From Acidobacteriota bacterium (GTDB lineage: Bacteria > Acidobacteriota > Blastocatellia > Pyrinomonadales > Pyrinomonadaceae): DNA of 52,105 nucleotides. A model generated the notes under the pieces. The model saw only the letters and a program-made list of their open reading frames with translations, was not told where the DNA came from and searched no databases. The stretch's first letter is position 1. Every line of letters begins with the position of its first letter. Position numbers and translations under genes: made by a program. The stretch is taken from NCBI GenBank assembly GCA_020846885.1, contig JADLDC010000204.1, positions 1-52,105 of the forward strand, in the 5' to 3' direction. Below, piece after piece: positions 14,267 to 40,880 of this stretch.

Positions 14267-14286
14267 ATCCGAAAGGCCCGGCCTCC

Positions 14287-17452: not shown

Positions 17453-17515
17453 GATCTAGAATTATGAGGAGCCGGCAAATTTCGCGGCTCCATTTCAGTC
17501 CTAAGTTACCGATCG

Positions 17516-22336: not shown

Positions 22337-22348
22337 AATGTTTAGACG

Positions 22349-23095: not shown

Positions 23096-23127
23096 TGTTT
23101 TGCTCGCTCTATTATCGCAGTCAAAAG

Positions 23128-23523
23128 TTATTTCTGTTCTCGATCAAGATGGTGCATGGTCAGTTGTGCTACGCAGTCTATCTCAAACAAAAGTGTGGGC
23201 GGCAAGCAGTTCGTTATCGTCGTTCTTGACGGAAACGGTTCAGAGAAAACTTCTCTGTAAAGCCGGTTAAACTCCGGCAGGTCCTCGTCGCGTCTCACAA
23301 AACAACCGACCTTTACGATGTCCGCAAGTGTCGCTCCACCAGCCGCGAGGATCGTCCGCAGATTGTCAATGGACCGTTCAAACTCGTCGGCGAATGTCCC
23401 CGCGATTATCTCGCCGGTTTTCAGATCAACAGACGCCTGGCCCGACACGAACAGCAGATCGCCAACACACATCGCGTGCGAGAACGGCAGCTTGAGATCG
23501 CCGAGTATTATCGGTTTCTTCAT
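23128..23523 (-). CDS. ridA: RidA-family enamine/imine deaminase
   Basis: A 131-aa YjgF/YER057c/UK114 protein. The conserved Arg that binds the carboxylate of 2-iminoacids is in PSRTTI, and the strand DLLFVSGQASVDLKTGEI and the helix ERSIDNLRTILAAGGATLADIV match the family. RidA hydrolyses reactive enamine/imine intermediates released by PLP dehydratases to 2-oxoacids. Its presence with the threonine-synthase-like PLP enzyme and aminotransferase of unit 2 suggests that an amino-acid-type intermediate is deaminated in this pathway (inference). It is encoded 7 bp after the glycerate kinase. Confidence 0.88.
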   Translation of the reverse strand: MKKPIILGDLKLPFSHAMCVGDLLFVSGQASVDLKTGEIIAGTFADEFERSIDNLRTILAAGGATLADIVKVGCFVRRDEDLPEFNRLYREVFSEPFPSRTTITNCLPPTLLFEIDCVAQLTMHHLDREQK

Positions 23524-23530
23524 AATTATA

Positions 23531-25588: not shown

Positions 25589-25623
25589 CGTTACGATCTC
25601 CAGAAAATGGTCCGGCAATTGTT

Positions 25624-26751
25624 CTAAAATTCGATGACCTGACGAACCGCTTTTCCCTCGGCCAAACGGTCAAACCCAACATTGATCTCATCTAATCTTA
25701 TAGTATGGGTCCGAAGCCTCTCGATCGGCAGCATTCCTTTCAGATGCATTTCTATGTACGTTGGTATGTCGCGGCTCGGTAGGCAAGAACCCATATATGA
25801 ACCTTTAACCGTCCGTTCTTCCGCAACAAGGCTGAAGGCCGGAATAGTGAACATCTTTTCCGGATGCGGCAGGCCCGCTGTGATCGTCGTGCCGCCGCGT
25901 CTGGTTGCCTGATACGACTGGATCAGCACCTGTTCGCTGCCCACACCCTCGAATACATGGTCGGCACCACCAGATGTGATCTGTTTGACGGCCTCGACCG
26001 CATCAACCTCCGATGCATTTACGGTGTGCGTGGCCCCGACTTGCCGGGCGAGTTCCAGCTTGTCGTCGAGCCGGTCAACCGCGATGATCGGAAATGCCTT
26101 TGCATAGCTTGCGCCTATCACCATACTGAGGCCCACGCCGCCGAGACCGAAAACGGCCACCGACTCTTCGGCTTCGACCTTCGCAGTATTCAAAACTGCG
26201 CCAACTCCGGTCAGCACCGCGCACCCGAACAGGGCCGCGATGTCCAATTGCAATGACTTGTCGATCTTTACAAGTGATTCTCGAGCGACGACGGTAAGTT
26301 CCGAAAATGCAGAAACGCCCAAATGGTGATTGATCGCTGATCCCGGATCTGAAAAATGCCTGGCCCCCGAAAGCAGTGTTCCGGCGACGTTCGCTTTTGC
26401 TCCGGGCTCGCATAACGCGGCCCGTCCCTGAAGGCAGTACGAGCAGGTTCCGCATACCGGCACAAAGCTGAAGATCACATGATCGCCGGGAACAAGGTCC
26501 TTGACCGCTGTGCCTACTTCACGAACGACACCGCTCGCCTCGTGGCCGAGGACCATCGGCATCACCCGCGGCCTTGAGCCGTCAATTACCGAAAGGTCGG
26601 AATGACAAAGCCCGGCGGCCGCAAGTTCAACCAGGACCTCGCTTTCGCCCGGCCCGGCAAGCGTAATTTCCTCTACACGCAGCGGCGTACTTTCCGCATA
26701 AGGGAAAGGCCTTCCCATTTCTGTTAATACTGCAGCTTTGGTTTTCATCAT
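25624..26751 (-). CDS. Zinc-dependent alcohol dehydrogenase (MDR superfamily)
   Basis: A 375-aa medium-chain dehydrogenase. The catalytic zinc site is Cys49, His70-Glu71 (GHEASG), the structural zinc site is Cys100/103/106/114, and the NAD-binding loop is FGLGGVGLS. It resembles the class III-like/aryl-alcohol branch rather than sorbitol dehydrogenases. Its substrate in this locus is unknown; an aldehyde or secondary alcohol produced during side-chain removal is plausible. The start overlaps the Kelch gene stop by 4 bp (ATGA), so translation is coupled. It is part of unit 1. Confidence 0.9.
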   Translation of the reverse strand: MMKTKAAVLTEMGRPFPYAESTPLRVEEITLAGPGESEVLVELAAAGLCHSDLSVIDGSRPRVMPMVLGHEASGVVREVGTAVKDLVPGDHVIFSFVPVCGTCSYCLQGRAALCEPGAKANVAGTLLSGARHFSDPGSAINHHLGVSAFSELTVVARESLVKIDKSLQLDIAALFGCAVLTGVGAVLNTAKVEAEESVAVFGLGGVGLSMVIGASYAKAFPIIAVDRLDDKLELARQVGATHTVNASEVDAVEAVKQITSGGADHVFEGVGSEQVLIQSYQATRRGGTTITAGLPHPEKMFTIPAFSLVAEERTVKGSYMGSCLPSRDIPTYIEMHLKGMLPIERLRTHTIRLDEINVGFDRLAEGKAVRQVIEF

Positions 26752-27725
26752 TTCTGTTCGTGCCTCACATGGCCGATCACAATTCCCTTGAAACGCGAGG
26801 CGAGTTTGTCTTCGCCTGATGCCCCGTAAAATGTGCCGTCAGCAAAGATGAATTTCGTGTCCATTAGCGGCTGTGGAAGTTTCGAGATCAATTCATACTT
26901 ATCCGACTTCGGAGAGTATCGATAGACCGTATCGAGGCCGGCTTCTGAGTAACCGCCGAGAAGATATACAAACTTGCCGTCCGCTCCGGCCCAAAACGCA
27001 CGCATCGCGATGGGCATCTTCTTAATGCCGGTCCAGGTATTTGTCTTCGTGCTGAATCGATATGCATCATCCAGATTGCGGGGCGTTTCGCCCGCCTTCT
27101 GTGTTATTCCTCCGAACACGTATATGTCAGTGCCGACAGCGGCCGCGGAAAAGATCTGCCGCGGCCCGCCGGGAATGTCCGGCCCGCTGCTCCATTTGTT
27201 CGCTCTCGTGTCGTATATCCAAACATCCTTTGCGGCGGTCGTCACATCGGCCGGGTTAGAAGACCCTCCAAAAACATAGATCTTTCCCCCGACGGTTGCG
27301 TATGCCGGGAAAATAAATGCCGCGGGCGATTCACCTATCTTGTCCCAGCTTCCTTTTCGCAGCCGATAGACATCCGTGTTCGCCAGTCCATTGCCGTCAA
27401 CGCCGCCAAGCAGAAAAATGTCCTTCCCTATCATGGCGGTCACGCCGTATCCGAAGGCTTTGGGCAGCGGTTTACCGGCCGACCATTTATTCAATTTTGG
27501 ATCATAAAAACTTGCCTCATTGGTCCAGAGTTTTTTTCCGTCTTTCCAATAACTCCCGCCCGCAAGCCACAGGCCGCCATTCTGCCAGGCCGCAAAATAG
27601 CCGCCTCTCGGCAGCGGAATGTCTTCGCCGCGTTTCCATTCGATACTCATTTGTTCGCCCGTCGTCTGACCCAAGCACATTCCGAAATTACATAAAAGTA
27701 AGATCAGGAGCCCGACACTTTTCAT
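26748..27725 (-). CDS. Secreted Kelch-repeat protein, NanM-like mutarotase
   Basis: A 325-aa protein with a Sec signal peptide (MKSVGLLILLLCNFGMCLGQ). Kelch blades can be read as repeated GG-x5-6-W-type units: LWLAGGSYW, IFLLGGVDG, IYVFGGSSN, IYVFGGITQ and VYLLGGYSE. This predicts a six-bladed propeller. N-acetylneuraminate mutarotase NanM has this fold and location, and the gene overlaps an SSS transporter gene by 4 bp exactly as mutarotases often accompany sialic-acid SSS symporters. It probably converts the anomer of the released acid sugar before uptake (inference); another acidic sugar is possible. Confidence 0.85.
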   Translation of the reverse strand: MKSVGLLILLLCNFGMCLGQTTGEQMSIEWKRGEDIPLPRGGYFAAWQNGGLWLAGGSYWKDGKKLWTNEASFYDPKLNKWSAGKPLPKAFGYGVTAMIGKDIFLLGGVDGNGLANTDVYRLRKGSWDKIGESPAAFIFPAYATVGGKIYVFGGSSNPADVTTAAKDVWIYDTRANKWSSGPDIPGGPRQIFSAAAVGTDIYVFGGITQKAGETPRNLDDAYRFSTKTNTWTGIKKMPIAMRAFWAGADGKFVYLLGGYSEAGLDTVYRYSPKSDKYELISKLPQPLMDTKFIFADGTFYGASGEDKLASRFKGIVIGHVRHEQK

Positions 27726-29251
27726 AAACGACCTCCCAGATCTTCATCCCGGCCCAAAACCGGTGCGTCGGCCCCGCGTCCCAGAAAGAGGCTGACAATT
27801 GCCGTCACGCCAAAACCGACAATGAACGAGACCGGGATTATCCAAATGAAGGAAAGCTGCTGCTTGACGCCAAAGATCTGTTGGCTAAATCCGATATAAA
27901 GGCTTGTGAGAACTGATGCCGCAAATCCGATAAGTACAGAGATAGCGTTCGATCGTCTTAACAGCATTCCTGCAAAAAAAAGAATCGCGAGCGGCCCGAC
28001 GAACAGATTTACGACGCGGCCGCTAAGCTCCACCAGATTCCATGTCGAACGCTCCATTCCGAGAGTGAATCCGATAGCGAGCAGAACACCAGCGCCGCCC
28101 ATCACGATGCCGATAAGCCGTTCGACGACCAGCGGTTTTTGGAAAAAGCTGATCCAGGTTTTCTTTGGCTGGATCTTGGTGATCAATACGCTGGATATCG
28201 CATTCATTCCCGAGCTAAGGCCCGACATTGCGGCGGCGAGCAGTCCCGCAACTATCAGCCCGGCGATACCGTGCGGCAGTTCTGCGACGACGAATTGGAT
28301 CATTGTTCTGTCCGCTGTTGCCGCGATCTGCTGTTGAAACTCATCGATGGGCAGCGATGACCTATACCTGTAGAAGGCAAACAAAGAGAGTCCGCAGATC
28401 GCAAGAAATACAACCGAGGCCAGATTCGAGACAATGTAAACCCAAACACTGCGGCGGGCCGCCTGCAGCGATGGCGTGCTCAGATATCGCTGAACGATCA
28501 TCTGGTCAGATGAACTTACGCAAACAAAATAGAAGAAGACCGATGCCATGTTGCCCACGGTCGTCATCCGGACGGTCGGGTCAAGACTAAAAGTTGTTAT
28601 CTCGGTTCGGCCGGCCTGCGAAAAAGAATCCCACCAGCCGAACGGCCCAACGCCGGTCGCATACATTACGTACATCGGTATCACAAGTGCGCAGCCCGTA
28701 AACAGCATTGTCTGGATAAAGTCGGTCCAGATCACCGACTGAAGGCCGCCAGCGGAGGTATAAAAGGTAGTAATGATCCCGATGACGGCAATTATGAAAA
28801 ATATGTTCCAGCCGGTAACTTGTGCTACCGCAAGGCTTGCGGTATAGATTATTGCCCCCATCCACAGCAGGGTCTTAAGTACAAAGGTATATTCGGAAAC
28901 TCTCGTTACACTGATATCGAAACGCTTGTCCAGATAGTCGTATGCGCTGCTGATAGGGAGGCTCATTATGATCGGCAGCACGATCCTGTTGATCACGGGA
29001 ACTATAAACGGAACGATCAAATAAGCCACAAAAAAGCCAAGTCCGTATCGGATCATCTCGCCGGGCACGGCCATAAAGCTGATGGTCGAGAATAGCGACA
29101 GGCTTCCGCCGACAAGGATCCAGTGCATCCCGCGGCCGCCTAGAAAAAAGTCCGTTCTGGAATCGAGTTTTCGCGAGAAATATAGCCCGATAAGAGACAT
29201 CGCTGCCATATACCCAACGACAACCGCAATATCAAGCGCGTTAAGCTGCAT
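27722..29251 (-). CDS. Sodium:solute symporter (SSS family), copy 2
   Basis: A 509-aa membrane protein closely paralogous to 14287-15783. Both begin MQLNALDIAV and share FFLGGRGMHWILVGGS, SLFSTISFMA, VIWTDFIQT and GLSSGMNAISSVLI almost unchanged. The C-terminal tail after the last helix is unique (GRGADAPVLGRDEDLG). The family couples sodium to the import of sugars, sialic acids or carboxylates. The gene overlaps the Kelch mutarotase gene by 4 bp, suggesting that mutarotation and uptake are coupled. Having one copy in each long unit suggests two related substrates or anomers (inference). Confidence 0.9.
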   Translation of the reverse strand: MQLNALDIAVVVGYMAAMSLIGLYFSRKLDSRTDFFLGGRGMHWILVGGSLSLFSTISFMAVPGEMIRYGLGFFVAYLIVPFIVPVINRIVLPIIMSLPISSAYDYLDKRFDISVTRVSEYTFVLKTLLWMGAIIYTASLAVAQVTGWNIFFIIAVIGIITTFYTSAGGLQSVIWTDFIQTMLFTGCALVIPMYVMYATGVGPFGWWDSFSQAGRTEITTFSLDPTVRMTTVGNMASVFFYFVCVSSSDQMIVQRYLSTPSLQAARRSVWVYIVSNLASVVFLAICGLSLFAFYRYRSSLPIDEFQQQIAATADRTMIQFVVAELPHGIAGLIVAGLLAAAMSGLSSGMNAISSVLITKIQPKKTWISFFQKPLVVERLIGIVMGGAGVLLAIGFTLGMERSTWNLVELSGRVVNLFVGPLAILFFAGMLLRRSNAISVLIGFAASVLTSLYIGFSQQIFGVKQQLSFIWIIPVSFIVGFGVTAIVSLFLGRGADAPVLGRDEDLGGRL

Positions 29252-29274
29252 AATTAGTTTTTAGAAAGTGAGAT

Positions 29275-30264
29275 CTAGTCGGACAGGAATTCGGCGACCA
29301 GGCAAACCGGATCGCCCGGATTTACCAAAGGATCGGACCGAAGGACGGCAACAATGCCGGAACTCAATGTCCTCACCTCTTCGAGCACTTCACCAAACAG
29401 ATCGCGGACCTCACCGACCAGCCGGCCCTTTTCGACCCGGTCAAGCAAATTCACCCGCTGCACAAAAAAGCCGCCGACATTCACGGACTGTGTGCGGTCT
29501 ATATCGCCCGATCCGAAGAGATGAAGTTTCGGAACGCGGACCGGAGCATCACGGTCTATTACCTTCAGATGCCCAAGCAGATTGAGCAGCGCATCGACAT
29601 AGTATGGAAGCTCGACATTCGATATGCGCCGGCCGCTTGGCGATTCGACATAGAGCCACGGAATTCCCCGCTCGATCGCCGCGTACAATGTGCGGCCCGG
29701 ACCAACGTCAGAGTGGCCCCACATAACCGGCATTCCAGTTCGAAACGCAGCGTCCTTCGATACTTTTGACGCTTCGGTCCCGCTCGCGTCATATCCCGCC
29801 ATTGTCGGCATAAGCGAGGCCGACGCCGAATGCAGGTCAATAAAAAGATCAGCTTGAGGAATGATAAGTTCACCTAAATAGTAAGCGAGCCTCTCGGTAA
29901 CGCTGCCGTCCTTTCGCCCCGGAAACGTCCTGGCGAGATTGAGCGAATCTATCGGGCTTGTTCTCTGAACGGCGCGAAAAGCGGGAAGGTTTGCGACCGG
30001 AACGGCGATAAATCTTCCGTTCATCGCGTCCGTTTCCAATTGACGAAAAACGTCCTGTATTGCCTGGACGCCTTCAAGCTCGTCGCCGTGGACCGCGGCA
30101 AACGCCACAAGCGTTTTCCCCGGTTTCAGCCCGTTTGCCACAAGCAGCGGAATGCCTATCTGCTCACCGCTTCCGGCCGGCGATATCTCCAGAAAGATGG
30201 AGTGCTTGCCGGCCCCGGAAAAGTCGGCGAACCGGAACTGATCGATCTCAATATTAATTGCCAT
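29275..30264 (-). CDS. M14-type succinylglutamate desuccinylase/aspartoacylase-family hydrolase
   Basis: A 329-aa zinc carboxypeptidase-fold deacylase. Counting from ATG 30264, likely zinc ligands are His59 and Glu62 of VHGDELEG and His145 of DLHSAS, with catalytic Glu207 in YVESPSG. The C-terminal ~90 residues form the beta-domain usual for this family (GGFFVQRV and VNPGDPVCLV). Known members remove N-acyl groups from amino acids; here it may remove an N-acyl or amide-linked group from the substrate. The ATG at 30264 is preferred to a TTG two codons upstream. It is in unit 1, 17 bp after the MBL gene. Confidence 0.86.
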   Translation of the reverse strand: MAINIEIDQFRFADFSGAGKHSIFLEISPAGSGEQIGIPLLVANGLKPGKTLVAFAAVHGDELEGVQAIQDVFRQLETDAMNGRFIAVPVANLPAFRAVQRTSPIDSLNLARTFPGRKDGSVTERLAYYLGELIIPQADLFIDLHSASASLMPTMAGYDASGTEASKVSKDAAFRTGMPVMWGHSDVGPGRTLYAAIERGIPWLYVESPSGRRISNVELPYYVDALLNLLGHLKVIDRDAPVRVPKLHLFGSGDIDRTQSVNVGGFFVQRVNLLDRVEKGRLVGEVRDLFGEVLEEVRTLSSGIVAVLRSDPLVNPGDPVCLVAEFLSD

Positions 30265-30281
30265 TATCAAAGCCGTGATCT

Positions 30282-31034
30282 CTAAAAGATCGAACCGATC
30301 TGACCCACGGTCTGCGGGATCGAACCTTTGTTTATCTGCTCAATTGCGGCGTCGATATGCCGCTGGCCGCCGCTGACGGTAAAAAGAAAATGTCCGGGAT
30401 AGAGCCCGTCGATCTTCGATCCGGCAAGTTTGCCGAGGTCTTTACGATAACCTTCCATGGTCGAGCCCGGAGCATTTATCAGCCCGATCACGCCGCCGTA
30501 AAAAAGCACATCGCCGCAAAAAAGATCGCGTGAACCGTTGATCTCGACGAGATAGCAAATTGAATCAGGACTGTGTCCGTCAACGCCTATCGCACTGAAT
30601 TCGAGCCCCGCAACGCTTATCTGATCGCCATCCTCAACCGCCTGATCGACAACACAGTTCTTAAACTGAAACCATTCCGGATAAATGCCTTTCTCGATCG
30701 CCTTATCCAAACCGGCTTCCTCGGCGGTCCCCTGCTCAAGAAGGTCACGGCTGTTTGCCGAGAGATAGACCCTGCATCCCGTGCGTTCACGTATCTCTGC
30801 CGCACCGCACGAATGATCGAAGTGAACATGCGTCAGGAGCAATGCCTTGATATCGTCCGGATCAAAGCCTTCGCTGCGGATATTCTCGAAGATCATTTCT
30901 CCGTCGGTCCCGCCGCCGGCGTCGATCAGTACCAACCCGTCGGGGCCTTTCACCAAATAGACGTGACTGTCCCACCGCCCGGAAATTCCAAGCTGTAAAC
31001 TGCCAACGAGATAGATATTTTCCGTTATCCTCAT
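30282..31034 (-). CDS. MBL-fold metallo-hydrolase
   Basis: A 250-aa metallo-beta-lactamase-fold protein. The dinuclear zinc motif is HVHFDH at 69-74, with the third His in DGHSPDS, the bridging Asp in FCGDVLF, and the last His in LYPGHFLF. No signal peptide is present. It is of the glyoxalase-II/lactonase-like class, and a lactone or thioester hydrolase is a plausible role in a sugar-acid pathway. The ATG overlaps the preceding serine hydrolase stop by 4 bp. Confidence 0.87.
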   Translation of the reverse strand: MRITENIYLVGSLQLGISGRWDSHVYLVKGPDGLVLIDAGGGTDGEMIFENIRSEGFDPDDIKALLLTHVHFDHSCGAAEIRERTGCRVYLSANSRDLLEQGTAEEAGLDKAIEKGIYPEWFQFKNCVVDQAVEDGDQISVAGLEFSAIGVDGHSPDSICYLVEINGSRDLFCGDVLFYGGVIGLINAPGSTMEGYRKDLGKLAGSKIDGLYPGHFLFTVSGGQRHIDAAIEQINKGSIPQTVGQIGSIF

Positions 31035-32176
31035 TGACCTGAACTTCGATCGACCGCGGCGAACGCCCGTGATATCTCAACGATCGTTCCCAGGTGCGCG
31101 CCCGTCAGATTATGCAGCATCGCCACAACCACCTTTTCCTTTGGATAGGCCCACAAATACGATCGTCCGCCGACATTCTCACCGGGATGGAAATAATAGG
31201 TGCGGCCTTCCTTGTCGCGGTTTATCCGCCAGCCCCAGCCGGTCCCAGTCTCTTTACCGTCTGACGTTTTTTGGGATGTGAACATCTTTTCCAACGTTTC
31301 TTTCTTCAGAAATCCGCTTTGAAGATGAGCCGAGCCAAACCTTGCCAGATCGTCGGCGGTGGACAACAGGCCGCCGCCCGCCCAATCGCAGCTTTGATCA
31401 ATGTATGGTGCATTTATTACATTCTTGTTCGTATCCAGCGAATAGAAACGGCTTCGGTTCGGAACGATCCGCCGATTATCGTCAGCCCCGGTATTCGCCA
31501 TTCCCAGCGGGCCGAAGACTTCTTTCTGCAAAAGATCGAGAAACTCTTGGCCGCTCGTTCTTTCAAGCATTGCACTAAGCAGGACAAACCCTTTGGACGA
31601 ATATCCGAACTTTGTGCCGGGCGCGAATTCCAGCGGATCTGCCTGAAACCGGTTGACACCCTCGGTCACATTTTTGCAGTAGGTCTTTCGATCAAAGAAC
31701 TCGTCCTTTTCCGGATCGGGATCACGGCGAAGATGCCTGATGCCCGATAAATGTCCGACAAGCTGCCGTGCGGATATCACAACGCCTTTCGATGGAAACT
31801 CCGGTACGTATTTTTGCACCGGCGCGTCCGGGTCAAGTTTCCCTTGTTCGTAAAGCCGGGCCATCGCCGCCGCGGTGATCGGCTTGGAAACGCTGGCGAT
31901 ACGAAACCGCGTGGCCGGCGTCACTTTCAAATTATTCTCAAGATCGGCAGATCCGAATCCTTCCGACCAGATGATCTTGCCGTCAACCGAAACCGCGACC
32001 GACAATCCGGGTATCGACTGTGCGGCCATCGTTTTGGCAATTATCTCCCTGCTCTCACGGACAGCCGCTTGATACCGTTCAGGAACTTGCGATCCCGCAA
32101 CGCACGGAAATATCGCGCCGAGGACCAGCAAGGCCCAGAGGCCGCGGCGGAAGATACTCGGTCTCCGTTCGGTCAT
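31031..32176 (-). CDS. Secreted serine hydrolase, class C beta-lactamase family
   Basis: A 381-aa protein with a signal peptide (WALLVLGAIFPCVAG). The catalytic Ser95-V-S-Lys98 is in RIASVSKPI, the second motif reads Y-S-S (FGYSSKGF) rather than Y-x-N, and HPGENVGG supplies the third. Such proteins are usually periplasmic esterases or peptidases rather than antibiotic-resistance enzymes, and the altered second motif supports an esterase or D-aminopeptidase-like role. It overlaps the aldolase gene stop by 4 bp in unit 1. Confidence 0.86.
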   Translation of the reverse strand: MTERRPSIFRRGLWALLVLGAIFPCVAGSQVPERYQAAVRESREIIAKTMAAQSIPGLSVAVSVDGKIIWSEGFGSADLENNLKVTPATRFRIASVSKPITAAAMARLYEQGKLDPDAPVQKYVPEFPSKGVVISARQLVGHLSGIRHLRRDPDPEKDEFFDRKTYCKNVTEGVNRFQADPLEFAPGTKFGYSSKGFVLLSAMLERTSGQEFLDLLQKEVFGPLGMANTGADDNRRIVPNRSRFYSLDTNKNVINAPYIDQSCDWAGGGLLSTADDLARFGSAHLQSGFLKKETLEKMFTSQKTSDGKETGTGWGWRINRDKEGRTYYFHPGENVGGRSYLWAYPKEKVVVAMLHNLTGAHLGTIVEISRAFAAVDRSSGQ

Positions 32177-33090
32177 TCCGCCTGCCCTCTGGCGATTTCG
32201 TCAGTTATCGGAAGTCCTAGATCTAATAAGATCTGCCGTACTTTTTCACGTCCCTCGCTATCGCACGCTGCATATGGCGCGATCGTCGTTTTGTCGCAGA
32301 TGCCCAAAAGCTGTAATGCCGCTTCAAACCCGCCCCATATCTCGCCATACTGGAAAATATCGCAGACCTTTTTTAAGTCGCGGCTCTTGGCAAATGCCGT
32401 GTCGTAGTCCTTTGCAGCGAACGCTTCGTAAAGATCGGCGGCGATCCTTGGCGCGATGTTGTGTGCGCCGCCTATCACGCCGTCGCCGCCCATCATCAGG
32501 CATTGCGGTATCAGAAGCTCGGTACCAAAGAACAGATCGAAATTCTCTTTTCCCGCAAAGGCATCGAAGAGGTTTGTCCAGCGGTTGCAATCCTGGCTTG
32601 TTTCCTTTAATCCGACGATGTTCGGCTCTTTGGCGAGTTCGACAAGGGACGCGACGTCAAGGTCCAGTTTTGTAAGATAGGGATTATTGTAAATGAACAC
32701 CGGTACGCCCGAAGCGTTAGCGATGTCGCGAAAAAAGCTCTTTCCCTGCTCCTGTGTCAGTTTGTAGTAGTAGGGCGGGACCGCGGTCACATAATCGATC
32801 TTTAATTTTTCGATCTCCTTTATTTTCGAGATAACGCGTTTTGTCCCACTGTCTGAAACGCCGGCGATGACCGGTACGCGGCCCTTCACCTCATCGACGA
32901 CGATATCGATCAGCCGTACCTGCTCGGCATCCGTGAGCAGTGCAAAGCATCCCATCGTCCCGTTCGCAAAAATGCCGTTCACACCGCCGTCGATCAGATA
33001 CCGGACCAGGTTCCGAAGTCCTTTTTCATCGACCCGTTCGTCTTCCAATACCGGCGTTCCGATCGGCGGAATAATTCCGTTTAATCGCAT
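32173..33090 (-). CDS. DapA/NanA-family class I aldolase
   Basis: A 305-aa TIM-barrel aldolase/lyase. Counting from ATG 33090, the Schiff-base Lys162 is in IVGLKETS and the proton-relay Tyr134 is in FIYNNP. The family pyruvate-carboxylate loop, G-[ST]-T-G-E in most members, here reads GTMGCFALL, so the second Thr and the Glu are replaced. This argues against dihydrodipicolinate synthase and leaves N-acetylneuraminate-lyase-like or keto-deoxy-sugar-acid aldolase activity, or a decarboxylase/dehydratase variant. GGAG lies ~10 nt upstream; a longer start at 33120 would overlap the SDR gene. With the Kelch and SSS proteins it resembles a Nan set, but NanE/NanK are missing. Confidence 0.85.
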   Translation of the reverse strand: MRLNGIIPPIGTPVLEDERVDEKGLRNLVRYLIDGGVNGIFANGTMGCFALLTDAEQVRLIDIVVDEVKGRVPVIAGVSDSGTKRVISKIKEIEKLKIDYVTAVPPYYYKLTQEQGKSFFRDIANASGVPVFIYNNPYLTKLDLDVASLVELAKEPNIVGLKETSQDCNRWTNLFDAFAGKENFDLFFGTELLIPQCLMMGGDGVIGGAHNIAPRIAADLYEAFAAKDYDTAFAKSRDLKKVCDIFQYGEIWGGFEAALQLLGICDKTTIAPYAACDSEGREKVRQILLDLGLPITDEIARGQAE

Positions 33091-33104
33091 AAATTCGTTA
33101 CTCC

Positions 33105-33884
33105 CTAAATAGCGGTCCAACCACCATCGACCATTAAATTATGTCCCGTGATATACGCTGAAGCATCCGAGGCAAGAAAGACCGCCGCTCCCTTGATATC
33201 GTCATCGGTCGCCATTCGCCCAAGCAGGCTTTGCTTTGCGTAGTTTTCAATAAATATGTCGGGCTGGTCGGTTTGAAACCCGCCCGGGCTAATGCAGTTA
33301 ACGCGGATCCCGAACCGGCCGTAATAGCTCGCGGCGTAACGCGTAAAATTGATCATGCCGCCCTTGGCAAATGCATAGTTTGCCGGACTTGTGATATCGG
33401 TGCCTTCGTAAATATTAAAATTCGGGCCGACCACGCCGTAGATCGACGAGATATTTACGATCACGCCCGACCGCTGTTTGATCATCTGTTCGCCGAAGAT
33501 CTTGCACGACATAAAAAACCCGGTCGAATTGACCTTCATCGCACTCACCCAGTCCTCTTCGGTAACTGTCGAAGGATCGCCGCCGGCCCGAGCGACCGCG
33601 TTATTAAAGAGAATGTCCAGCTTTCCGAATTCTGAAACTACCTCGTCGCATAATGCCTGTATCGATCCGCTCGAACCAAGGTCCAGCACGGCAGCAGAGG
33701 CCTTCAGGCCCTCGTCACTAAGTTCGCCCGCCGTTTTTTGACATTGGTCCAAGTTGCGCGAAGCGATCACAACATGTGCTCCGGCCTCGGCAAGTGCACG
33801 GCTAATATGGACGCCGTAAATTCCCGCTCCGCCCGTCACAAGGGCTATCCGCCCGTCGAGCCTGAATAGATCGATCGTGTTCAT
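33105..33884 (-). CDS. SDR-family oxidoreductase
   Basis: A 259-aa classical SDR. TGGAGIYG at about 17-24 is the nucleotide loop, NNAVARAGG follows beta4, the catalytic Ser is in NISSIYG, and YAFAKGG supplies Tyr and Lys. The C-terminus YITGHNLMVDGGWTAI is typical. Gluconate-5-dehydrogenase/KduD-like activity on a sugar acid is plausible from context. Its start overlaps the alpha/beta hydrolase stop by 4 bp. It is one of three SDRs in the regulon. Confidence 0.88.
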   Translation of the reverse strand: MNTIDLFRLDGRIALVTGGAGIYGVHISRALAEAGAHVVIASRNLDQCQKTAGELSDEGLKASAAVLDLGSSGSIQALCDEVVSEFGKLDILFNNAVARAGGDPSTVTEEDWVSAMKVNSTGFFMSCKIFGEQMIKQRSGVIVNISSIYGVVGPNFNIYEGTDITSPANYAFAKGGMINFTRYAASYYGRFGIRVNCISPGGFQTDQPDIFIENYAKQSLLGRMATDDDIKGAAVFLASDASAYITGHNLMVDGGWTAI

Positions 33885-34651
33885 TGCCTATTTATAAACG
33901 AAACAATTGCCTGATCGAATTGTTCCGGCTGTTCGAGGTTTGAATAATGGCCGGCGTTCCTGATCAAGCAAAGTTCCGAGCCATTTACGCGGCTGTGCAT
34001 TTTCCGGCCCATATCGGCATCGGTCAGCTCGTCCTCCTCGCCAAAAATAAAAAGAGTGGGAACGTCTATCTCAGAAAGCAGGTCACAACTGTCATTTCGC
34101 GCGGCCATTCCGCGTAACGCTCCAATTGCCGCCTGAGGATCCGTTCCGGCAAATCTTTGTTCCAGATCGGCATACAGTTCAGGGTTATTTTCTTTTGTGT
34201 ACTTGCCGACAAGCATGGGCAGCATGTTTTCGATCAGTGCCTGCGATCCAGATCCTTCGATCTTCTTGATCAATTTGAAACGGTTCTCCCGTTTTTCGTC
34301 CGTATCGGCCGCACAGGCCGTATCGCACAGGATCAATCCGCTGAACCGGCCCGGATCGAGACGATAGAGCGCAAAGGTCACATATCCGCCCATCGAAAGG
34401 CCGCCGATGATAGCTTTTTCAATTTCAAGACGGTCAAGAAGGTCGGCTACATCGCCGGCCATTTCGTCCATCGTATTAGTGTCAGCCGTACTTTTCGTTT
34501 CACCAAAGCCGCGCAGGTCCGGCAGGATCAGTCGAACATTCACGCGTTCAAGAGCCTTCTTCTGCGGCTCCCACATCCGGCGTGAGAGCGGAAAAGCGTG
34601 CAGTAAAACCAACGGTATTCCGTCGCCGTGTTCTTCATATTCGATCTGCAT
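33881..34651 (-). CDS. Alpha/beta-fold hydrolase (enol-lactonase-like)
   Basis: A 256-aa alpha/beta hydrolase. The nucleophile elbow is GLSMGG, the oxyanion HAFPLS is near residue 18, the acid is in FGEEDELT, and the catalytic His is in RNAGHYSNLEQ. The sequence recalls 3-oxoadipate enol-lactonases and related lactonases. Beside two SDR dehydrogenases, opening of a sugar lactone formed by a dehydrogenase is the most economical role (inference). There is no signal peptide. It is in unit 1, 34 bp after the next SDR gene. Confidence 0.85.
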   Translation of the reverse strand: MQIEYEEHGDGIPLVLLHAFPLSRRMWEPQKKALERVNVRLILPDLRGFGETKSTADTNTMDEMAGDVADLLDRLEIEKAIIGGLSMGGYVTFALYRLDPGRFSGLILCDTACAADTDEKRENRFKLIKKIEGSGSQALIENMLPMLVGKYTKENNPELYADLEQRFAGTDPQAAIGALRGMAARNDSCDLLSEIDVPTLFIFGEEDELTDADMGRKMHSRVNGSELCLIRNAGHYSNLEQPEQFDQAIVSFINRQ

Positions 34652-34685
34652 TGCTGATGTTCCGCGCCCTAATGTTCAAGCCGCT

Positions 34686-35450
34686 TCAATAGATCAAAAA
34701 TCCGCCGTCAACAACGATCGTCTCGCCGGTTATGTACGAGGAATCGTCCGAAGCTAGAAAGACGGCCGTTGGACCGATCTCAAATGCTTCTCCGCGGCGG
34801 TTCAAAGGGATCTTCCGTACATAGTTTCCGGAAAACCCGCGTTCCTTCTTATCCTGGACTACGTTTTCACTCGTCTCGGTTCGGATGTCGCCGGGAGCGA
34901 TCGCGTTTACCCTGATCCCGTGCGGAGCGAGCTCAAGCGCCATGGCCTTCGTCAGCCCGGTCAAGGCGGACTTGGCGGCGCAGTAAACCGATGCTCCTTC
35001 CTGTGCGGCATACGCACCGACTGATGAAATATGAATTATCGAGCCGCCGCGGCCGGCCATCGATCGTGCAGCTTCCTGCGAAACAATGAACGTGCCTTTG
35101 AGATTTACGTCAATTGTCCGATCGAGAAGTTCGTCGGTAACGTCCAGGAAATGTTCGGAAACTTTTGGCCCCGTCATCGCTGCGTTGTTTACAAGAATAT
35201 CTATCGCCCCGCACCTATCGATCGTATCGGCGACAAGCTTCTTCACCATCTCGCGTGAGCTTATGTCGGCCTCCAGCGGAATGACATTGTGCCCTTCAGC
35301 CCGAAGTTCCGCTGCCGCTTTTTCGGCTTTCTCAAGCATCGACTGCGCGATAACGACCACGGCCCCGGCTTCCGCCAGCGACCGGCTGATACCTTTGCCG
35401 ATCCCGGTTCCGCCGCCGGTCACAATTGCTACTTTGTTCTCAAGCTTCAT
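34686..35450 (-). CDS. SDR-family oxidoreductase
   Basis: A 254-aa SDR with the nucleotide loop TGGGTGIGKG (about 12-21), NNAAMTGP after beta4, Ser in HISSVGAY, the Tyr-Lys pair in YCAAKSALTG, and the tail YITGETIVVDGG. It resembles glucose-1-dehydrogenase or gluconate-5-dehydrogenase-like members. It overlaps the HIBADH-type gene by 11 bp. The presence of three different SDRs suggests several sequential oxidation steps on the sugar ring. Confidence 0.88.
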   Translation of the reverse strand: MKLENKVAIVTGGGTGIGKGISRSLAEAGAVVVIAQSMLEKAEKAAAELRAEGHNVIPLEADISSREMVKKLVADTIDRCGAIDILVNNAAMTGPKVSEHFLDVTDELLDRTIDVNLKGTFIVSQEAARSMAGRGGSIIHISSVGAYAAQEGASVYCAAKSALTGLTKAMALELAPHGIRVNAIAPGDIRTETSENVVQDKKERGFSGNYVRKIPLNRRGEAFEIGPTAVFLASDDSSYITGETIVVDGGFLIY

Positions 35451-36342
35451 TTATCGAATGATTCGAAAGCGCCTCTATCACCAGCAGCAGTGAAGAGTGG
35501 TCAAGGTCGCCTTTTCCGCCGGCAACAAGATGAGTGAACATTTGATCGACAAGTGCCGAGACCGGCAAAGCAACTCCGAACTCGCGGGCGGTTTCGAGAA
35601 TGATGCCCATATCTTTGCGATGAAGACGCGCCTTGAAACCGGGCGTAAAATCGTGTTCTATCATTGTCGGTCCGCGAAGGTCCAGAACGCGGTTCTGAGC
35701 AAGTCCGCCGCTCAATACCTGCAAGATCACATCCGGATCAACGCCGGCCTTTGAACCGAGGACCATCGCTTCTGAAACGGCTTCGATCACAAGCGCAACA
35801 ACTATCTGATTGCATGCCTTTACGACCTGTCCAGACCCTAACGGGCCGCAGTGCCGGATCGTCTTGCCCATTGCTTCAAATAGCGGCATTGCACGCTCGA
35901 AATCCCCTGCATCACCGCCGGCCATGATGGAAAGCGTCCCGGCTATCGCTCCCTTGTCGCCGCCGCTGACCGGAGCATCCAACATTCGCGTGCCTGCTTT
36001 TTCAACCTCGGCCGCGATCCGTTTGGTCACTACCGGCGAGATCGTGCTCATATCTATCAGCAGCAGGCCTTCATGTGCAGCTTCAAGAATGCCGTTGGTG
36101 CCGAGTACAACTGCTTCTACGTCCGAAGAATCCGGCAGCATCGTGATCACGATATCGCTCCGCTCGGCAGCTTCTTTCGATGAGTTTGCGGCCGTTGCGC
36201 CTTCGGCCTCAAGCTCGCTTACCGCCGCCCGGCTGCGGTTGTAAACACAAGGAACATAACCCGCCTTCAGTAAATTCCGCACCATCGGTTTGCCCATGAT
36301 GCCCAAACCGATAAAACCGATATTTTCCTTTCCGCGTTCCAT
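35440..36342 (-). CDS. 3-hydroxyacid dehydrogenase, tartronate-semialdehyde-reductase (GarR)-like
   Basis: A 300-aa member of the beta-hydroxyacid dehydrogenase family. The Rossmann loop IGFIGLGIMGKPM (about 8-20), the substrate motif DAPVSGGDKGA, and the catalytic Lys in GQVVKACNQ are all present, and KARLHRKDMGI is the conserved C-terminal signature. GarR/GlxR members reduce 2-hydroxy-3-oxopropionate to D-glycerate. The next upstream gene encodes a hydroxypyruvate-isomerase-like protein whose product would be the substrate, and a glycerate kinase is in the same unit. The start overlaps the Hyi stop by one base (TAATG). Confidence 0.9.
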   Translation of the reverse strand: MERGKENIGFIGLGIMGKPMVRNLLKAGYVPCVYNRSRAAVSELEAEGATAANSSKEAAERSDIVITMLPDSSDVEAVVLGTNGILEAAHEGLLLIDMSTISPVVTKRIAAEVEKAGTRMLDAPVSGGDKGAIAGTLSIMAGGDAGDFERAMPLFEAMGKTIRHCGPLGSGQVVKACNQIVVALVIEAVSEAMVLGSKAGVDPDVILQVLSGGLAQNRVLDLRGPTMIEHDFTPGFKARLHRKDMGIILETAREFGVALPVSALVDQMFTHLVAGGKGDLDHSSLLLVIEALSNHSINEA

Positions 36343-37157
36343 TATCTTAAGAGTTCTAGTGATTCGATATCAATACCGCGGCGATGCTCACGCGGCAGCC
36401 AGTTAAGCGATTCCTCGGTCGTCCCGTTCGCAGCATACTCCAACCCGACCGAACCTTGATAATCACATTTTTCGATCGCTTCAAAAACCCGCCGGTAATT
36501 TATCTCGCCGGTCCCGGGATGTTGGCGCAAGGGCGAATCGGCGATCTGGATATGCCCGATGCTCTCAATGTTCTTTTCCAAAGTGGCGATAATGTTACCC
36601 TCCATTCGCTGCATATGATAAATATCGTAAAGATATTCAAGGTTTGCCGCGCCTACGGAATCAAGGAAAGCCAGCGTATCTGCTGTGTTCGTGAACGGAT
36701 AGAATTTGTTGTCAAAGGCGTTTATCGCTTCGACCATTATCGTTAGGCCGGCCGCCTTTGCTTCTTCACATATCCAACTCAAATTCTCCCTGATGCGGCC
36801 GATCTGCTTTTCCCTTTCCTCGCCGGGCCGAAGATTTCCGGCCAATGCCGTCAGTTTCCTGCAGCCGACCTTGTGCGCGAGTTCAAAGGCGGCTGGAAGG
36901 TTGTCCCGCATCCGCTTGCCGCGGCCAGGGTCATTCAGCAAGCCGCGGTCACCGTCCTGAAGTTCGCCTGCATCGAGATTGAAGGCGGCAACCCGAAGGC
37001 CGTTGTCGAGAACTGCCTGTGCGATCGCTTTCGCATCGTGGTCCTTGTCCCAATAGAATTCGACCGCCTCAAATCCTGCTCTCGCAGCCTCGGCAAAACG
37101 CTCGATGAACGGATATTCCTTAAAGAGGATCGAAATATTTATATCAACTTTTATCAT
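36342..37157 (-). CDS. Hydroxypyruvate-isomerase-like TIM-barrel protein
   Basis: A 271-aa xylose-isomerase-like TIM barrel. The FEAVEFYW strand, EAINAFDNKFYPF (a Glu metal ligand), YDIYHMQRMEGN and GLEYAANG (the last metal Glu) follow the Hyi pattern. Hyi interconverts hydroxypyruvate and tartronate semialdehyde. With the GarR-like and glycerate kinase proteins of the same unit it completes a hydroxypyruvate to glycerate route. A sugar epimerase of the same fold is the main alternative. It is 21 bp after the GHL10-like gene. Confidence 0.88.
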   Translation of the reverse strand: MIKVDINISILFKEYPFIERFAEAARAGFEAVEFYWDKDHDAKAIAQAVLDNGLRVAAFNLDAGELQDGDRGLLNDPGRGKRMRDNLPAAFELAHKVGCRKLTALAGNLRPGEEREKQIGRIRENLSWICEEAKAAGLTIMVEAINAFDNKFYPFTNTADTLAFLDSVGAANLEYLYDIYHMQRMEGNIIATLEKNIESIGHIQIADSPLRQHPGTGEINYRRVFEAIEKCDYQGSVGLEYAANGTTEESLNWLPREHRRGIDIESLELLR

Positions 37158-37178
37158 GATCGGCTGGGGGACTCGCGG

Positions 37179-39089
37179 TCAGAACCCGACATCATTTACC
37201 CAGCGGCCGTACCATGTATCGCCGTAGCGCTTTAGCGGAATATATCTCATCGCCGGCCGCTTTTCTTTTTCCCATTCGGCCAATTTGTCGTCGTGTCCCA
37301 GGCGTGACACCAGCGACCAATAAGTGCCCACGGCCCGTTGGTAGTGCCGCGTTGGCTGTGGCGGGCGGGGTGCGTACATGCCGGTCGGAAACGGGTCCCA
37401 GAAAAGCAGCCCCGCCGCTCCTTTCGCGTAGTATTCCCGTGCGTTTGCGATGGCATCTTCATATGAAGACATTCGCCATCCGATCATCAATGGGTAAACT
37501 TCCGTTTTCGTTCCCTTTGTGATCCTGCTGAACCAGTCCATATCCACCGGCTTGCTTGTATCTGTATGAAATGCCGCCGGAAAAATGCTGATCTTGTCGA
37601 TCAACCCCTCTTTCACCCAACGCTCAACATCCAGCCCGTATTTGCGGTTATCGTTTTCAGTATGGACGACCGACGCCATGAGCTCGTATCGTTCCTTTTT
37701 CCCCTGTTCCTTCTGCACGTCGTCAAGCAGTTTTCGGACATCGCGCATGAACCCGGTCATTATCTCGCCGCGCAGTTCGTAAAGGCGCGGATCGTTCTCA
37801 GGGACCTGTTTCGCGTCGGCCCCGTATTTCTCACGAAATCGATCACTGAAAGCATCTTCCCAAAGCATCAGCGGCAGCCCGCGAAAGTAAATTATTTCGA
37901 TGCCGTCCGGCTTATATGCCAGGACTTCCCTTAAAATATTGTAAATGTGCTCCCTTACCTGCGGCACCGCGTAACTCATTCTCATCGCCGGCGTGCCGTC
38001 TCTGTCGTATGCCCGATATTCGGGATGATCGCGGTAAAACTTTGAAGTGAAATAGTCCTCAAAAGCAGGCGTTGCCTGAAAAGCCTGGGCCCGGAAACCG
38101 ATAAATATTTTCTTGTTCATCGATCGTGCGGCCTGCACGGCTAGTTTCGTATGGTCCTCGCCTCGCTCGATAAATTTCTTTATCGACTGCGTGACATATC
38201 CGTCGCCGGTCCTTGCCGGGACCTCGGAAAGTTCGCCGGGGATCGTTCCATATTTTGACGGAAAATTGACAAGTCCGCCGCCGATGATCTGCCACGACAG
38301 TGTGCCGAAATCCGAGTCACGATAATGCTCAAAATCTTCGAGAAACTCTTCTTTTGTGGTCGGGTAGTTTTGATGTATCCAACTGAAAGCATCAAGTGTG
38401 GCGATCAGCTTCTTTTTGCTCGCGTCCGCTCTGTCCCTTTTTATCTGATCGACTTCAGCGCCTGTCAACGGCACGAGTTTCACATACATCACGACCGTAT
38501 GACGGGGATTGGGATCCGGCATCAGGTTCATCTTTGCCTGCATTCGCATTTGCGCGATATGAAGGCTCTGCCCGGTGAGATCGCCCGCCTTAAAGAAAAC
38601 CTCGTCGATGTCGTCGCGTGCGCCCGAATATCGCCGATGCTGGAAAGTGACATCATTGGTCAGCTTTAGTCTTGCCTCGCTCTCTTGCCCGAAAGCGAAT
38701 CTTCCCATGCCGCCCAACCCAACGTAAATTGCATACCAGCCCTTCACATTAAGCGGCAGCGTCACTTCCGGCGCACCGGTGTCAGGAAGGGATGCGATGC
38801 ACTTTCCTTTAAGCCCGGCCTTCGTTTCATATTCAAGTACTTTCCATTTCCGAACCCGCCGCACATCGGACGATAAGGCACTGCCGGGCGTCACCACCGA
38901 CATATCGGAAATGACGATCGCGTCCTTAGACCTTTCCCACCGGTCCACTTCAAAAGCGGCATTTTGTCCCAACGCTGTAATGTGAAAAAGTAAAACGCCT
39001 GCAAACGACGGCAGTATTACCTTACTCATCATTCGGAACCGTCGAAAGCGGTTCCGCGCGACGTTCGATCTCTTACTAAAAAAGGTCAT
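37179..39089 (-). CDS. Secreted glycoside-hydrolase-like TIM-barrel protein (GHL10-type)
   Basis: A 636-aa protein with a long positively charged N-region (FFSKRSNVARNRFRRFR) and a signal-anchor or signal peptide (VILPSFAGVLLFHITALG). The first ~190 residues are beta-rich and could be a carbohydrate-binding module. The rest is a TIM barrel with YKPDGIEIIYFRG (a barrel strand bearing Asp and Glu) and LMASVVHTENDN, resembling GHL10/DUF-type putative glycoside hydrolases. I do not recognise a characterised family. It is the first structural gene behind the NusG paralog. GAGG lies 9 nt before the ATG at 39089, which is preferred over an internal ATG at 39029. Confidence 0.75.
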   Translation of the reverse strand: MTFFSKRSNVARNRFRRFRMMSKVILPSFAGVLLFHITALGQNAAFEVDRWERSKDAIVISDMSVVTPGSALSSDVRRVRKWKVLEYETKAGLKGKCIASLPDTGAPEVTLPLNVKGWYAIYVGLGGMGRFAFGQESEARLKLTNDVTFQHRRYSGARDDIDEVFFKAGDLTGQSLHIAQMRMQAKMNLMPDPNPRHTVVMYVKLVPLTGAEVDQIKRDRADASKKKLIATLDAFSWIHQNYPTTKEEFLEDFEHYRDSDFGTLSWQIIGGGLVNFPSKYGTIPGELSEVPARTGDGYVTQSIKKFIERGEDHTKLAVQAARSMNKKIFIGFRAQAFQATPAFEDYFTSKFYRDHPEYRAYDRDGTPAMRMSYAVPQVREHIYNILREVLAYKPDGIEIIYFRGLPLMLWEDAFSDRFREKYGADAKQVPENDPRLYELRGEIMTGFMRDVRKLLDDVQKEQGKKERYELMASVVHTENDNRKYGLDVERWVKEGLIDKISIFPAAFHTDTSKPVDMDWFSRITKGTKTEVYPLMIGWRMSSYEDAIANAREYYAKGAAGLLFWDPFPTGMYAPRPPQPTRHYQRAVGTYWSLVSRLGHDDKLAEWEKEKRPAMRYIPLKRYGDTWYGRWVNDVGF

Positions 39090-39210: not shown

Positions 39211-39224
39211 GACGCACTACCGCC
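39211..39224 (-). promoter_or_regulatory. ops-like element (GGCGGTAGTGCG) after the NusG paralog
   Basis: On the minus strand 39224-39217 reads GGCGGTAG, the invariant 8-nt ops core, followed by TGCGTCTTT. Compared with the exact 12-nt copy in leader 2, two of the last four bases differ. It lies in the leader downstream of the NusG-paralog gene and upstream of the remaining 18 genes of unit 1. Confidence 0.5.
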
Positions 39225-39311: not shown

Positions 39312-39830
39312 CTAAACCGCCGGCTCCAAAAGCCGTCTGTCGATAACAAACTCGGCTGAACATCCCAGTATGTCCAGCAAGAGAACTACTCTGCTCCGGT
39401 CGTTCAGATCGCGCTTGAAGATGCCCTTCATACCTTTAAAGGCACCTTCCCGAACCGATACGGCGTCGCCGCTGTTCAGCTCGGCGTCCATGAACTCGAT
39501 ACAATCATTCGAATCCAGCCTTTCGCGAATTCGCATGATTATCTCATTCTCCACGCGCAAAAGCGTTTGGCCGAAATGCAAGACCCGTCGAACACCGCGT
39601 GTGTATTGGATCGTATGGAGGAATTTTTCAGGATCGAACAAGGCGAAAATATAACTCGGGAAAAGGGCCGTCCTAACTGTGGTCTCGGTACCGAATCTGC
39701 GTCTCTTCTTCAACTGTTTTGGGTTCAAGATCTCCAGATCAAGCTGGGCCGATAGATAATAAGCGACGAGGTCCTCTTGCCCTGATCTCGTCTGGATCGC
39801 ATACCAGTTTGTTCCTTCAAAATAATGCAT
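39312..39830 (-). CDS. Specialised NusG paralog (RfaH/UpxY/LoaP-type antiterminator)
   Basis: A 172-aa protein. The N-terminal NGN domain starts NWYAIQTRSGQE and includes ALFPSYIFALFD and the GVRRVLHFG strand (about 8-105). The C-terminal KOW domain reads SGDAVSVREGAFKGMKGIFK (about 119-138). The housekeeping NusG normally sits in the secE-nusG-rplK operon; this one instead heads a 19-gene catabolic unit, the position typical of RfaH-like, UpxY and LoaP proteins that suppress premature termination across their own long operon. Two ops-type sites in the leaders of both long units support this. It binds RNA polymerase in the cytoplasm. No clear Shine-Dalgarno precedes the ATG. Confidence 0.88.
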   Translation of the reverse strand: MHYFEGTNWYAIQTRSGQEDLVAYYLSAQLDLEILNPKQLKKRRRFGTETTVRTALFPSYIFALFDPEKFLHTIQYTRGVRRVLHFGQTLLRVENEIIMRIRERLDSNDCIEFMDAELNSGDAVSVREGAFKGMKGIFKRDLNDRSRVVLLLDILGCSAEFVIDRRLLEPAV

Positions 39831-39905: not shown

Positions 39906-39934
39906 ATTATAAGAAGTTGATTCCTTGAAATAAA
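39906..39934 (-). promoter_or_regulatory. Candidate promoter of unit 1 (NusG paralog)
   Basis: A perfect TATAAT lies at 39911-39906 on the minus strand with TTTATT 17 bp upstream (39934-39929) as a poor -35. The weak -35 overlaps the conserved AAAAAGCTATTT block and the operator palindrome would be centred near -71, a class I activator position. Confidence 0.45.
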
Positions 39935-39953
39935 TAGCTTTTTAGGCTAAATT
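39925..39953 (+). promoter_or_regulatory. Candidate promoter of iclR
   Basis: TTGAAA at 39925-39930 and TAAATT at 39948-39953 are 17 bp apart on the plus strand. The expected start point (about 39960) abuts the palindrome at 39962-39979, which would block or limit transcription of iclR when occupied. Confidence 0.45.
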
Positions 39954-39979
39954 CATGATGTTGTTCAGCGGGCTGAACA
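39932..39979 (-). promoter_or_regulatory. Shared operator module A: TGTTCAG-N4-CTGAACA plus AAATAGCTTTTT block
   Basis: The palindrome TGTTCAG-CGGG-CTGAACA lies at 39962-39979 and AAATAGCTTTTT at 39932-39943. Both elements and their 31-bp offset recur in module B (21280-21326). It lies between divergent iclR and the NusG-paralog unit. Confidence 0.65.
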
Positions 39980-40046: not shown

Positions 40047-40880
40047 ATGCGAAAAAGCATCCCAATGGATATCAGGACGAAATCAGTTCCCGCGATCGAG
40101 AAGGCAATGGCTGTATTAGAACGGCTTGCTGCCTCGCAAAACGGCCTCGGCTTGTCTGAACTTACCCGTGAGCTTTCTTTACCTAAGAGCTCAACCTACG
40201 GAATGCTGCTCACACTTGAACGTCTCGGCTATCTGCATCGAAATCAGGACACCGGCCGCTATATGTTCGGGATGAAGATATTGTCGCTCGCGAACATGGC
40301 GTTAAATGGCCTGAATCTGCGTAAATTGGCGATGCCGCATCTTAAACGGCTTATGAACAAGACCCATCTAACTGTTCACATGACCGTGCAGGAACACCAT
40401 GAGGCCGTGATCATCGAGAAGGCCGATTCACCTTATACGCCTAAGGTCGAAACCTGGGTAGGAAAGCGAATGGGCATTCATTGTACCGCGGCCGGCAAGG
40501 CCCTGTTGAGCGGTATGTCTGAGGCAGACCTTGATAAGCTCATAAGATATGGGCTTCCGCGCTACAACGACAACACCATCGTTTCACCCAAAAAACTAAA
40601 GAAAGAACTTGAGACTGTTGCAAAGGAAGGTTATGCACTGGACGACGAGGAAGAAACGATCGGTTCACGCTGTGTCGGTGCACCGATAAGGGACCACACC
40701 GGCAAGGTCGTCGCCGCGGTGAGCGTCGCCGGATATAAGCAGCAGATCCACCACGAAACTTTTCCTTCGCTGGTTCTCTCCGTAAAGGAAACGGCGGCGG
40801 CCATTTCGCAGCAATTAAAACAGCCGCAAGAAGTTAGGGACATCGACAACAATGATAGCGAGCGTATTTCGCTTGCATGA
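40047..40880 (+). CDS. IclR-family transcriptional regulator
   Basis: A 277-aa regulator. The N-terminal winged helix (about 14-75) contains LGLSELTRELSLPKSSTYGM, whose recognition helix is followed by the wing GYLHRNQDTGRYMFG. The effector domain has VGKRMGIHCTAAGKALLSG and RCVGAPIRDHTGKVVAAVSVAG, as in KdgR/IclR proteins that sense sugar acids or 2-oxoacids. It is divergent from the 38-kb cluster and next to a palindrome shared by both long units, so it is very probably their regulator, perhaps with dual action (inference). AGGAG lies 10 nt before ATG 40047; ATG 40065 is an alternative. Confidence 0.92.
   Translation: MRKSIPMDIRTKSVPAIEKAMAVLERLAASQNGLGLSELTRELSLPKSSTYGMLLTLERLGYLHRNQDTGRYMFGMKILSLANMALNGLNLRKLAMPHLKRLMNKTHLTVHMTVQEHHEAVIIEKADSPYTPKVETWVGKRMGIHCTAAGKALLSGMSEADLDKLIRYGLPRYNDNTIVSPKKLKKELETVAKEGYALDDEEETIGSRCVGAPIRDHTGKVVAAVSVAGYKQQIHHETFPSLVLSVKETAAAISQQLKQPQEVRDIDNNDSERISLA

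Follow-up and report, generated by a model that had tools for sequence, protein, structure and literature searches.

An RfaH-like NusG paralog and ops elements in a catabolic glycan locus of Acidobacteriota

Background

The targets described for NusG paralogs are surface polysaccharides (capsules and lipopolysaccharide, LPS), toxins, conjugation and antibiotics. RfaH of E. coli is encoded by a lone gene and acts in trans on LPS, capsule, toxin and conjugation genes. UpxY of Bacteroides, LoaP of Bacillus and TaA of Myxococcus are encoded beside the long operons that they serve (PMC7819879), which are operons for capsules or antibiotics; LoaP acts via an RNA hairpin (PMC12691694). Monomorphic beta-RfaH proteins that adjoin long LPS or secretion operons are the subject of a 2026 preprint (PMC13015549). 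According to a 2020 study of evolution, detailed knowledge of recruitment exists for E. coli RfaH alone among the paralogs, recognition of the operon polarity suppressor (ops) element came late, and it arose together with autoinhibition (PMC7593976). Here we describe a NusG paralog, P0001, encoded in a stretch of 52,105 nucleotides (hereafter the window; contig JADLDC010000204.1 of assembly GCA_020846885.1) from an Acidobacteriota bacterium of the family Pyrinomonadaceae, together with the glycan locus that follows its gene.

An earlier note on this DNA had claimed that a specialised NusG paralog heads a one-directional catabolic regulon of about 38 kb; it mentions neither the ops elements of the leaders nor the palindrome common to them, the division into two units, or ops beside NusG paralogs of other phyla. 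We consider it probable that P0001 is an elongation factor of the RfaH-like kind, specific to a glycan and sugar-acid catabolic regulon, which it would serve by ops-directed processive antitermination. The protein family, two ops elements, two palindromes and the conservation of these features are seen directly in the DNA. Such a regulon under a NusG paralog, if true, widens the purpose of processive antitermination. We found no description of a polysaccharide utilisation locus under a processivity factor with ops elements. Likewise no catabolic, Acidobacteriota or Verrucomicrobiota case of a NusG paralog was found in the literature, subscription papers being mostly outside the coverage, so that priority is not proven.

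Results and discussion

A specialised NusG paralog

39312..39830, minus strand: RfaH-like specialised NusG paralog P0001 (NGN and KOW domains), 172 aa; assigned by profile scores, PDB match, predicted structure and tree

The NGN domain of P0001 matches PF02357 over the cut-off (1.8e-12). Among the NCBIfam models of the family, the RfaH model scores highest (98.2 bits), followed by UpxY (69), LoaP (66) and housekeeping NusG (47). P0001 stays below the curated cut-off of each of these four models; in particular, the cut-offs are 144.5 bits for the RfaH equivalog TIGR01955, 100 bits for UpxY and 125 bits for LoaP. The closest sequence in the PDB is E. coli RfaH (8e-13).

A phylogeny of 86 proteins groups the housekeeping NusGs in one clade (support 100/100), and P0001 lies outside it. 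Together with 64 other specialised paralogs it makes up a 65-row side that is split from the rest with support 96/85. The sampling was seeded with relatives of P0001 and the root was placed at the midpoint, so the deep order should not be over-read. UpxY and LoaP rows are absent from the tree, and the exclusion of these two classes rests on the scores of the hidden Markov models.

The assembly, referred to below as G000, is a metagenome-assembled genome, 78.7% complete and consisting of 444 contigs. P0001 is the sole NusG detected in it. The genes of ribosomal proteins L11 (rplK) and L1 (rplA) normally lie directly after nusG, and they are likewise absent from the assembly. Both congeners that possess the paralog, G005 and G012 (Acidobacteria bacterium ACE_ACI6), carry it together with a housekeeping NusG. 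Therefore the nusG-rplK-rplA stretch is simply unassembled in G000, and we dropped the idea that P0001 is the only NusG of the genome. The housekeeping NusG that a specialised paralog should have beside it is thus seen in the congeners. By its domains, its place outside the housekeeping clade and this second NusG, P0001 is classed as a specialised NusG paralog, as the earlier note had said; the top curated model and the PDB match agree with this.

The AlphaFold model of P0001 consists of the NGN domain and an all-beta C-terminal domain (CTD) folded as a beta-barrel (predicted local distance difference test, pLDDT, 85); a second alignment gave the same CTD. The NGN domain overlays ops-bound RfaH with a root-mean-square deviation of 1.5-2.3 Å (2.3 Å for 5ond and 1.7 Å for 8pen). 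The ops-contacting residues T72 and R73 of RfaH are retained and the position of K10 is basic (R here, K in orthologs), while NusG has V, P and F at the positions of T72, R73 and K10. The RfaH row of this comparison matches the PDB alignment, and its NusG row was left out of the final tree.

ops elements in the leaders of the locus

39213..39224, minus strand: ops-like element 1, GGCGGTAGTGCG, within the leader of 222 nt that separates the first structural gene from the paralog; motif scan
21095..21106, minus strand: ops element 2, GGCGGTAGCGTG, within the leader (429 nt) of the outer-membrane receptor gene; motif scan and leader alignment

Element 1 lies 87 nt past the stop codon of the paralog. 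Element 2, read from 21106 to 21095, matches the E. coli ops12 oligonucleotide (PMC5995543) at every base. The window has exactly two copies of the 8-mer GGCGGTAG, both of them on the coding strand, one in each of the long leaders. The leaders of G005 contain GGCGGTAGTGCG, identical to leader 1 of the window, and GGCGGTAGCTTG in front of the receptor gene. Those of G012 contain GGCGGCAGTCTG in leader 1, GGCGGTAGCCTG in the receptor leader and GGCGGCAGCCTG in the leader of a duplicated receptor gene. Altogether ops elements are present in 7 of the 7 leaders read in the three genomes, and in an alignment of the four receptor leaders ops is among the few blocks conserved in all.

Organization of the catabolic locus

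21344..39089, minus strand: structural genes of unit 1; domain and profile content
1760..20914, minus strand: genes of unit 2, with the receptor ATG at 20914; domain content

Below the paralog, 31 genes follow down to position 1760, all on the minus strand and mostly of glycan or sugar-acid catabolic type by domain content. Gaps do not exceed 63 bp, with three exceptions: 222 bp separate the paralog from the next gene, 429 bp precede the gene of the outer-membrane receptor, and 353 bp lie at the end. Unit 1 encodes GHL10-like and Hyi-like (hydroxypyruvate isomerase-like) proteins, tartronate semialdehyde reductase, SDRs, an alpha/beta hydrolase and a DHDPS-family aldolase. It also encodes beta-lactamase-fold and MBL-fold hydrolases, AstE/AspA, an SSF transporter, a kelch mutarotase-like protein, ADH, GDSL esterases, glycerate kinase (MOFRL), RidA and Gfo/Idh. 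Unit 2 encodes a CarboxypepD_reg/beta-barrel outer-membrane receptor, a sulfatase, an SSF transporter, two SGNH esterases, an SDR, three BNR sialidase-like proteins, RraA-like, PALP and MlrC proteins and a class-III aminotransferase. The locus has two such SSF transporters (sodium:solute symporters), one per unit.

Domain and profile scans of the locus genes found no glycosyltransferase. Judged by these degradative and uptake genes, the locus is a catabolic glycan locus, in agreement with the earlier note. Its substrate may be an acidic glycan with acyl and sulfate groups, the sugar acids of which would end in the glycerate pathway. The locus shares with polysaccharide utilisation loci the receptor, sulfatase, esterases, sialidase-like proteins, transporters, sugar-acid catabolism and a local regulator. 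In unit 1, the beta-lactamase-fold, MBL-fold and AstE/AspA-type hydrolases are consecutive (29275-32176). They score far below the cut-offs for resistance enzymes and therefore probably have esterase, lactonase or amidohydrolase roles.

The complete gene order is kept in G012, with the paralog again first, although the G012 paralog is only 61% identical to P0001. G005 keeps the order as well, spread over two contigs. The paralog is found in 3 of 37 genomes of the genus; these 3 are also the ones, among 41, that have the first structural gene. Elsewhere in the phylum, GHL10 homologues show just ~30% identity, hence there is no paralog-free locus to serve as a control.

39963..39978, no strand assigned: palindrome GTTCAG-N4-CTGAAC (GTTCAGNNNNCTGAAC) 5' of the paralog, candidate IclR-type operator; genome motif counts
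21311..21326, no strand assigned: second copy of GTTCAGNNNNCTGAAC, where the receptor leader begins; genome motif counts
39906..39937, minus strand: conserved promoter-like stretch with TATAAT at 39911-39906; sequence inspection
40047..40880, plus strand: divergent IclR-family regulator gene, candidate initiation-level regulator of both units; domain and profile matches

The palindrome GTTCAGNNNNCTGAAC occurs exactly twice per genome in G000, G005 and G012, and every copy is 5' of the paralog or of a receptor gene of the locus. In all three genomes an ops element lies downstream of each copy, at ~0.2 kb in unit 2 and ~0.7 kb in unit 1. CTATTTA follows the first palindrome, that upstream of the paralog, at a distance of 41 nt, and the same 41-nt spacing separates CTATTTA at 21285 from the second palindrome. 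With the divergent IclR-family gene adjoining, the palindrome is likely an operator.

The 429-nt leader has a palindrome, a promoter-like stretch and an ops element of its own. For this reason a single 38-kb operon was dropped in favour of two transcription units, one from the paralog to Gfo/Idh (18.5 kb) and one from the outer-membrane receptor to the aminotransferase (19 kb). The 38 kb of the earlier note are indeed co-directional.

G012 has an additional receptor/sulfatase unit (L064, 6797-9150), which has a palindrome and an ops element of its own; one of the two receptor leaders of G012 has an imperfect copy of the palindrome. The regulatory leader was duplicated there together with the genes.

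ops elements beside paralogs of other phyla

A scan of relatives covered 80 paralog loci, chiefly from Nitrospirota, Verrucomicrobiota and related phyla. For 91 non-redundant paralogs we also counted 8-mers in the 350 nt on the downstream side, with no prior choice of motif. The commonest were GCGGTAGC (25 loci), GGCGGTAG and CGGTAGCT (15 each) and GGCGGCAG (13), that is, the top 8-mers are those of ops. The sequence GGCGGYAGNNYG was found at 24 of the 91 loci in the sense orientation, at none of them in antisense, and in 2 of 1085 distant windows (Fisher test, 3e-26); 22 of 89 loci have it when P0001 and its orthologues are left out. In the aligned elements an A-rich pair stands ahead of GGCGGYAGCNTG.

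The genes after other ops elements have largely sugar-nucleotide, polysaccharide and exosortase functions. Therefore, as far as gene content tells, a catabolic setting is unusual among the sampled ops loci, which are mostly biosynthetic.

Two other groups of paralogs were seen. Next to Acidobacteriota paralogs that seem to be ops-free (L072-L096, L159, L169), a variant of CGGTAGC or TGCGGTA type occurs at 8 of 18 loci; a TGCGGTAGCT-like variant in place of GGCGGYAGCNTG is possibly a second class of ops. The paralogs of L094, L097 and L098 are of a third kind, with no R at the position of RfaH R73 and no ops nearby, and the tree places them nearer to housekeeping NusG.

Proposed mechanism

An inducer would act on the divergent IclR-family protein and thereby permit initiation at two promoters with a common palindromic operator. 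Polymerase from the first promoter would make the short paralog mRNA and then meet ops element 1. There the exposed non-template strand would pause the polymerase and recruit fresh paralog via its NGN domain. The paralog would displace housekeeping NusG, remain bound and keep the polymerase going for 18.5 kb. At ops element 2, another 18 kb downstream, the paralog would be recruited as well and drive the unit of the receptor, sulfatase and sialidase-like genes. Since the paralog gene lies upstream of ops, its expression would be independent of its own antitermination, which makes the proposed circuit a feed-forward one. We infer ops recognition by P0001, antitermination and IclR binding from the sequence features given above.

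Several observations weigh against this proposal. E. coli-type RfaH is placed across the supported split from P0001, in a separate clade; P0001 is thus RfaH-like and yet no orthologue of E. coli RfaH. Of the positions involved in autoinhibition, I93 and F130 are kept (I, F) and residue 48 is T or A instead of E. Because E48 is lost and the CTD is predicted to be all-beta, P0001 probably lacks the fold-switch autoinhibition that belongs to the RfaH mechanism. In that case ops and synthesis beside the target would have to confer specificity. R16, H20 and H65-T67 of RfaH are not retained in P0001. Leader 1 has C instead of T at ops position 11, and leader 1 of G012 has C at position 6, the base that is flipped out by RfaH; the substitution T6A weakens RfaH recruitment about threefold (PMC5995543). 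Finally, no ops motif was found near the closest paralogs from outside the genus (G043, G047 and G059; 42% identity), where the next gene begins ~30 nt downstream of the paralog.

Alternative explanations

P0001 could act as LoaP or UpxY do, using a hairpin in the RNA or a terminator in the leader, the GGCGG motif being merely a polymerase pause that aids loading. We regard this as unlikely. Consensus pauses do share the flanking G and YG bases with ops, but the conserved core C3-G4-G5-Y6-A7-G8 belongs to the part that matters for RfaH: pausing in E. coli can do without the central ops bases, whereas RfaH requires them (PMC5995543), and it is the bases needed for RfaH and not for pausing that are kept in these leaders. 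Like P0001, the UpxY and LoaP classes are encoded beside their targets; their models, however, are outscored on P0001 by that of RfaH. A hairpin, TGCCGC-N9-GCGGCA, is present in the leader just past the paralog stop codon. Neither leader was found to contain an intrinsic terminator-like site on its coding strand, and UpxY-type leader terminators were therefore dropped. An Rfam scan for known RNA leader elements such as JUMPstart returned only one tRNA in the window.

It is still less likely that the locus consists of two ordinary IclR-controlled catabolic operons and the paralog is a passenger or acts in trans on an unlinked polysaccharide operon. The operator by itself could coordinate both units, and many related paralogs adjoin polysaccharide biosynthesis genes. 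A passenger would hardly be expected to occur in just those three genomes of the genus that have the locus, to stay first in it at 61% identity and to be accompanied by ops in every leader. One other exact GGCGGTAGCGTG, apparently non-coding, exists elsewhere in the genome (G000:C220:2416-2427; L116:1501-1512) and fits an action in trans. This site, where no Rfam family was found, is a possible extra target.

That the ops matches are due to chance is very improbable: the motif is short, the DNA moderately GC-rich, and GGCGGTAGNNYG has 14, 9 and 6 matches per genome, but the reversed control has 28, 46 and 51, most of the other matches examined fall within open frames, and the enrichment is strand-specific at the same place across phyla.

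Comparison with known systems

Ops-directed antitermination by P0001 would bring together traits of several systems. Like E. coli RfaH, its closest match in sequence and NGN fold, P0001 is a NusG paralog besides a separate housekeeping NusG, has T72, R73 and a basic residue at the position of K10, and is accompanied by the ops 12-mer in the leader of a long unit. Unlike RfaH, P0001 is encoded at the head of its own target, has a catabolic target, probably undergoes no fold switch and belongs to a different clade. It shares a position beside the long operon served with UpxY, LoaP and TaA, and differs from them in its higher score with RfaH and in the ops DNA of its locus. Monomorphic beta-RfaH resembles P0001 in its place beside a putative target and in the predicted beta-barrel CTD; P0001 differs in its catabolic target, in its host from Acidobacteriota and in that ops elements were located.

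The proposed mechanism fits the stepwise model of the literature, except that ops recognition would here exist without autoinhibition. We lean slightly towards the view that ops recruitment is old and widespread among NusG paralogs and needs no autoinhibition, as opposed to being a late invention of proteobacterial RfaH. Cis-encoded factors in Acidobacteriota, Nitrospirota, Verrucomicrobiota, Kiritimatiellota, Lentisphaerota and Myxococcota would represent this module, captured for a catabolic regulon in the present genus of Acidobacteriota. The ops elements beside paralogs of several other phyla make recruitment directly testable and call the late appearance of ops into question. These loci offer natural candidates for an ops-recruited, non-fold-switching factor that acts near its own gene, evidence for which is lacking according to the 2026 preprint (PMC13015549).

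Neighbouring genes

A tRNA gene and a gene of a DUF4143/AAA protein (48-121 and 282-1406) lie just beyond the end of the locus and may mark an insertion boundary. On the other side, co-directional genes of a Crp-family regulator, a SLAC1-like anion channel, a Rieske protein and a molybdopterin oxidoreductase (41012-48891) adjoin the catabolic locus and are separate from it.
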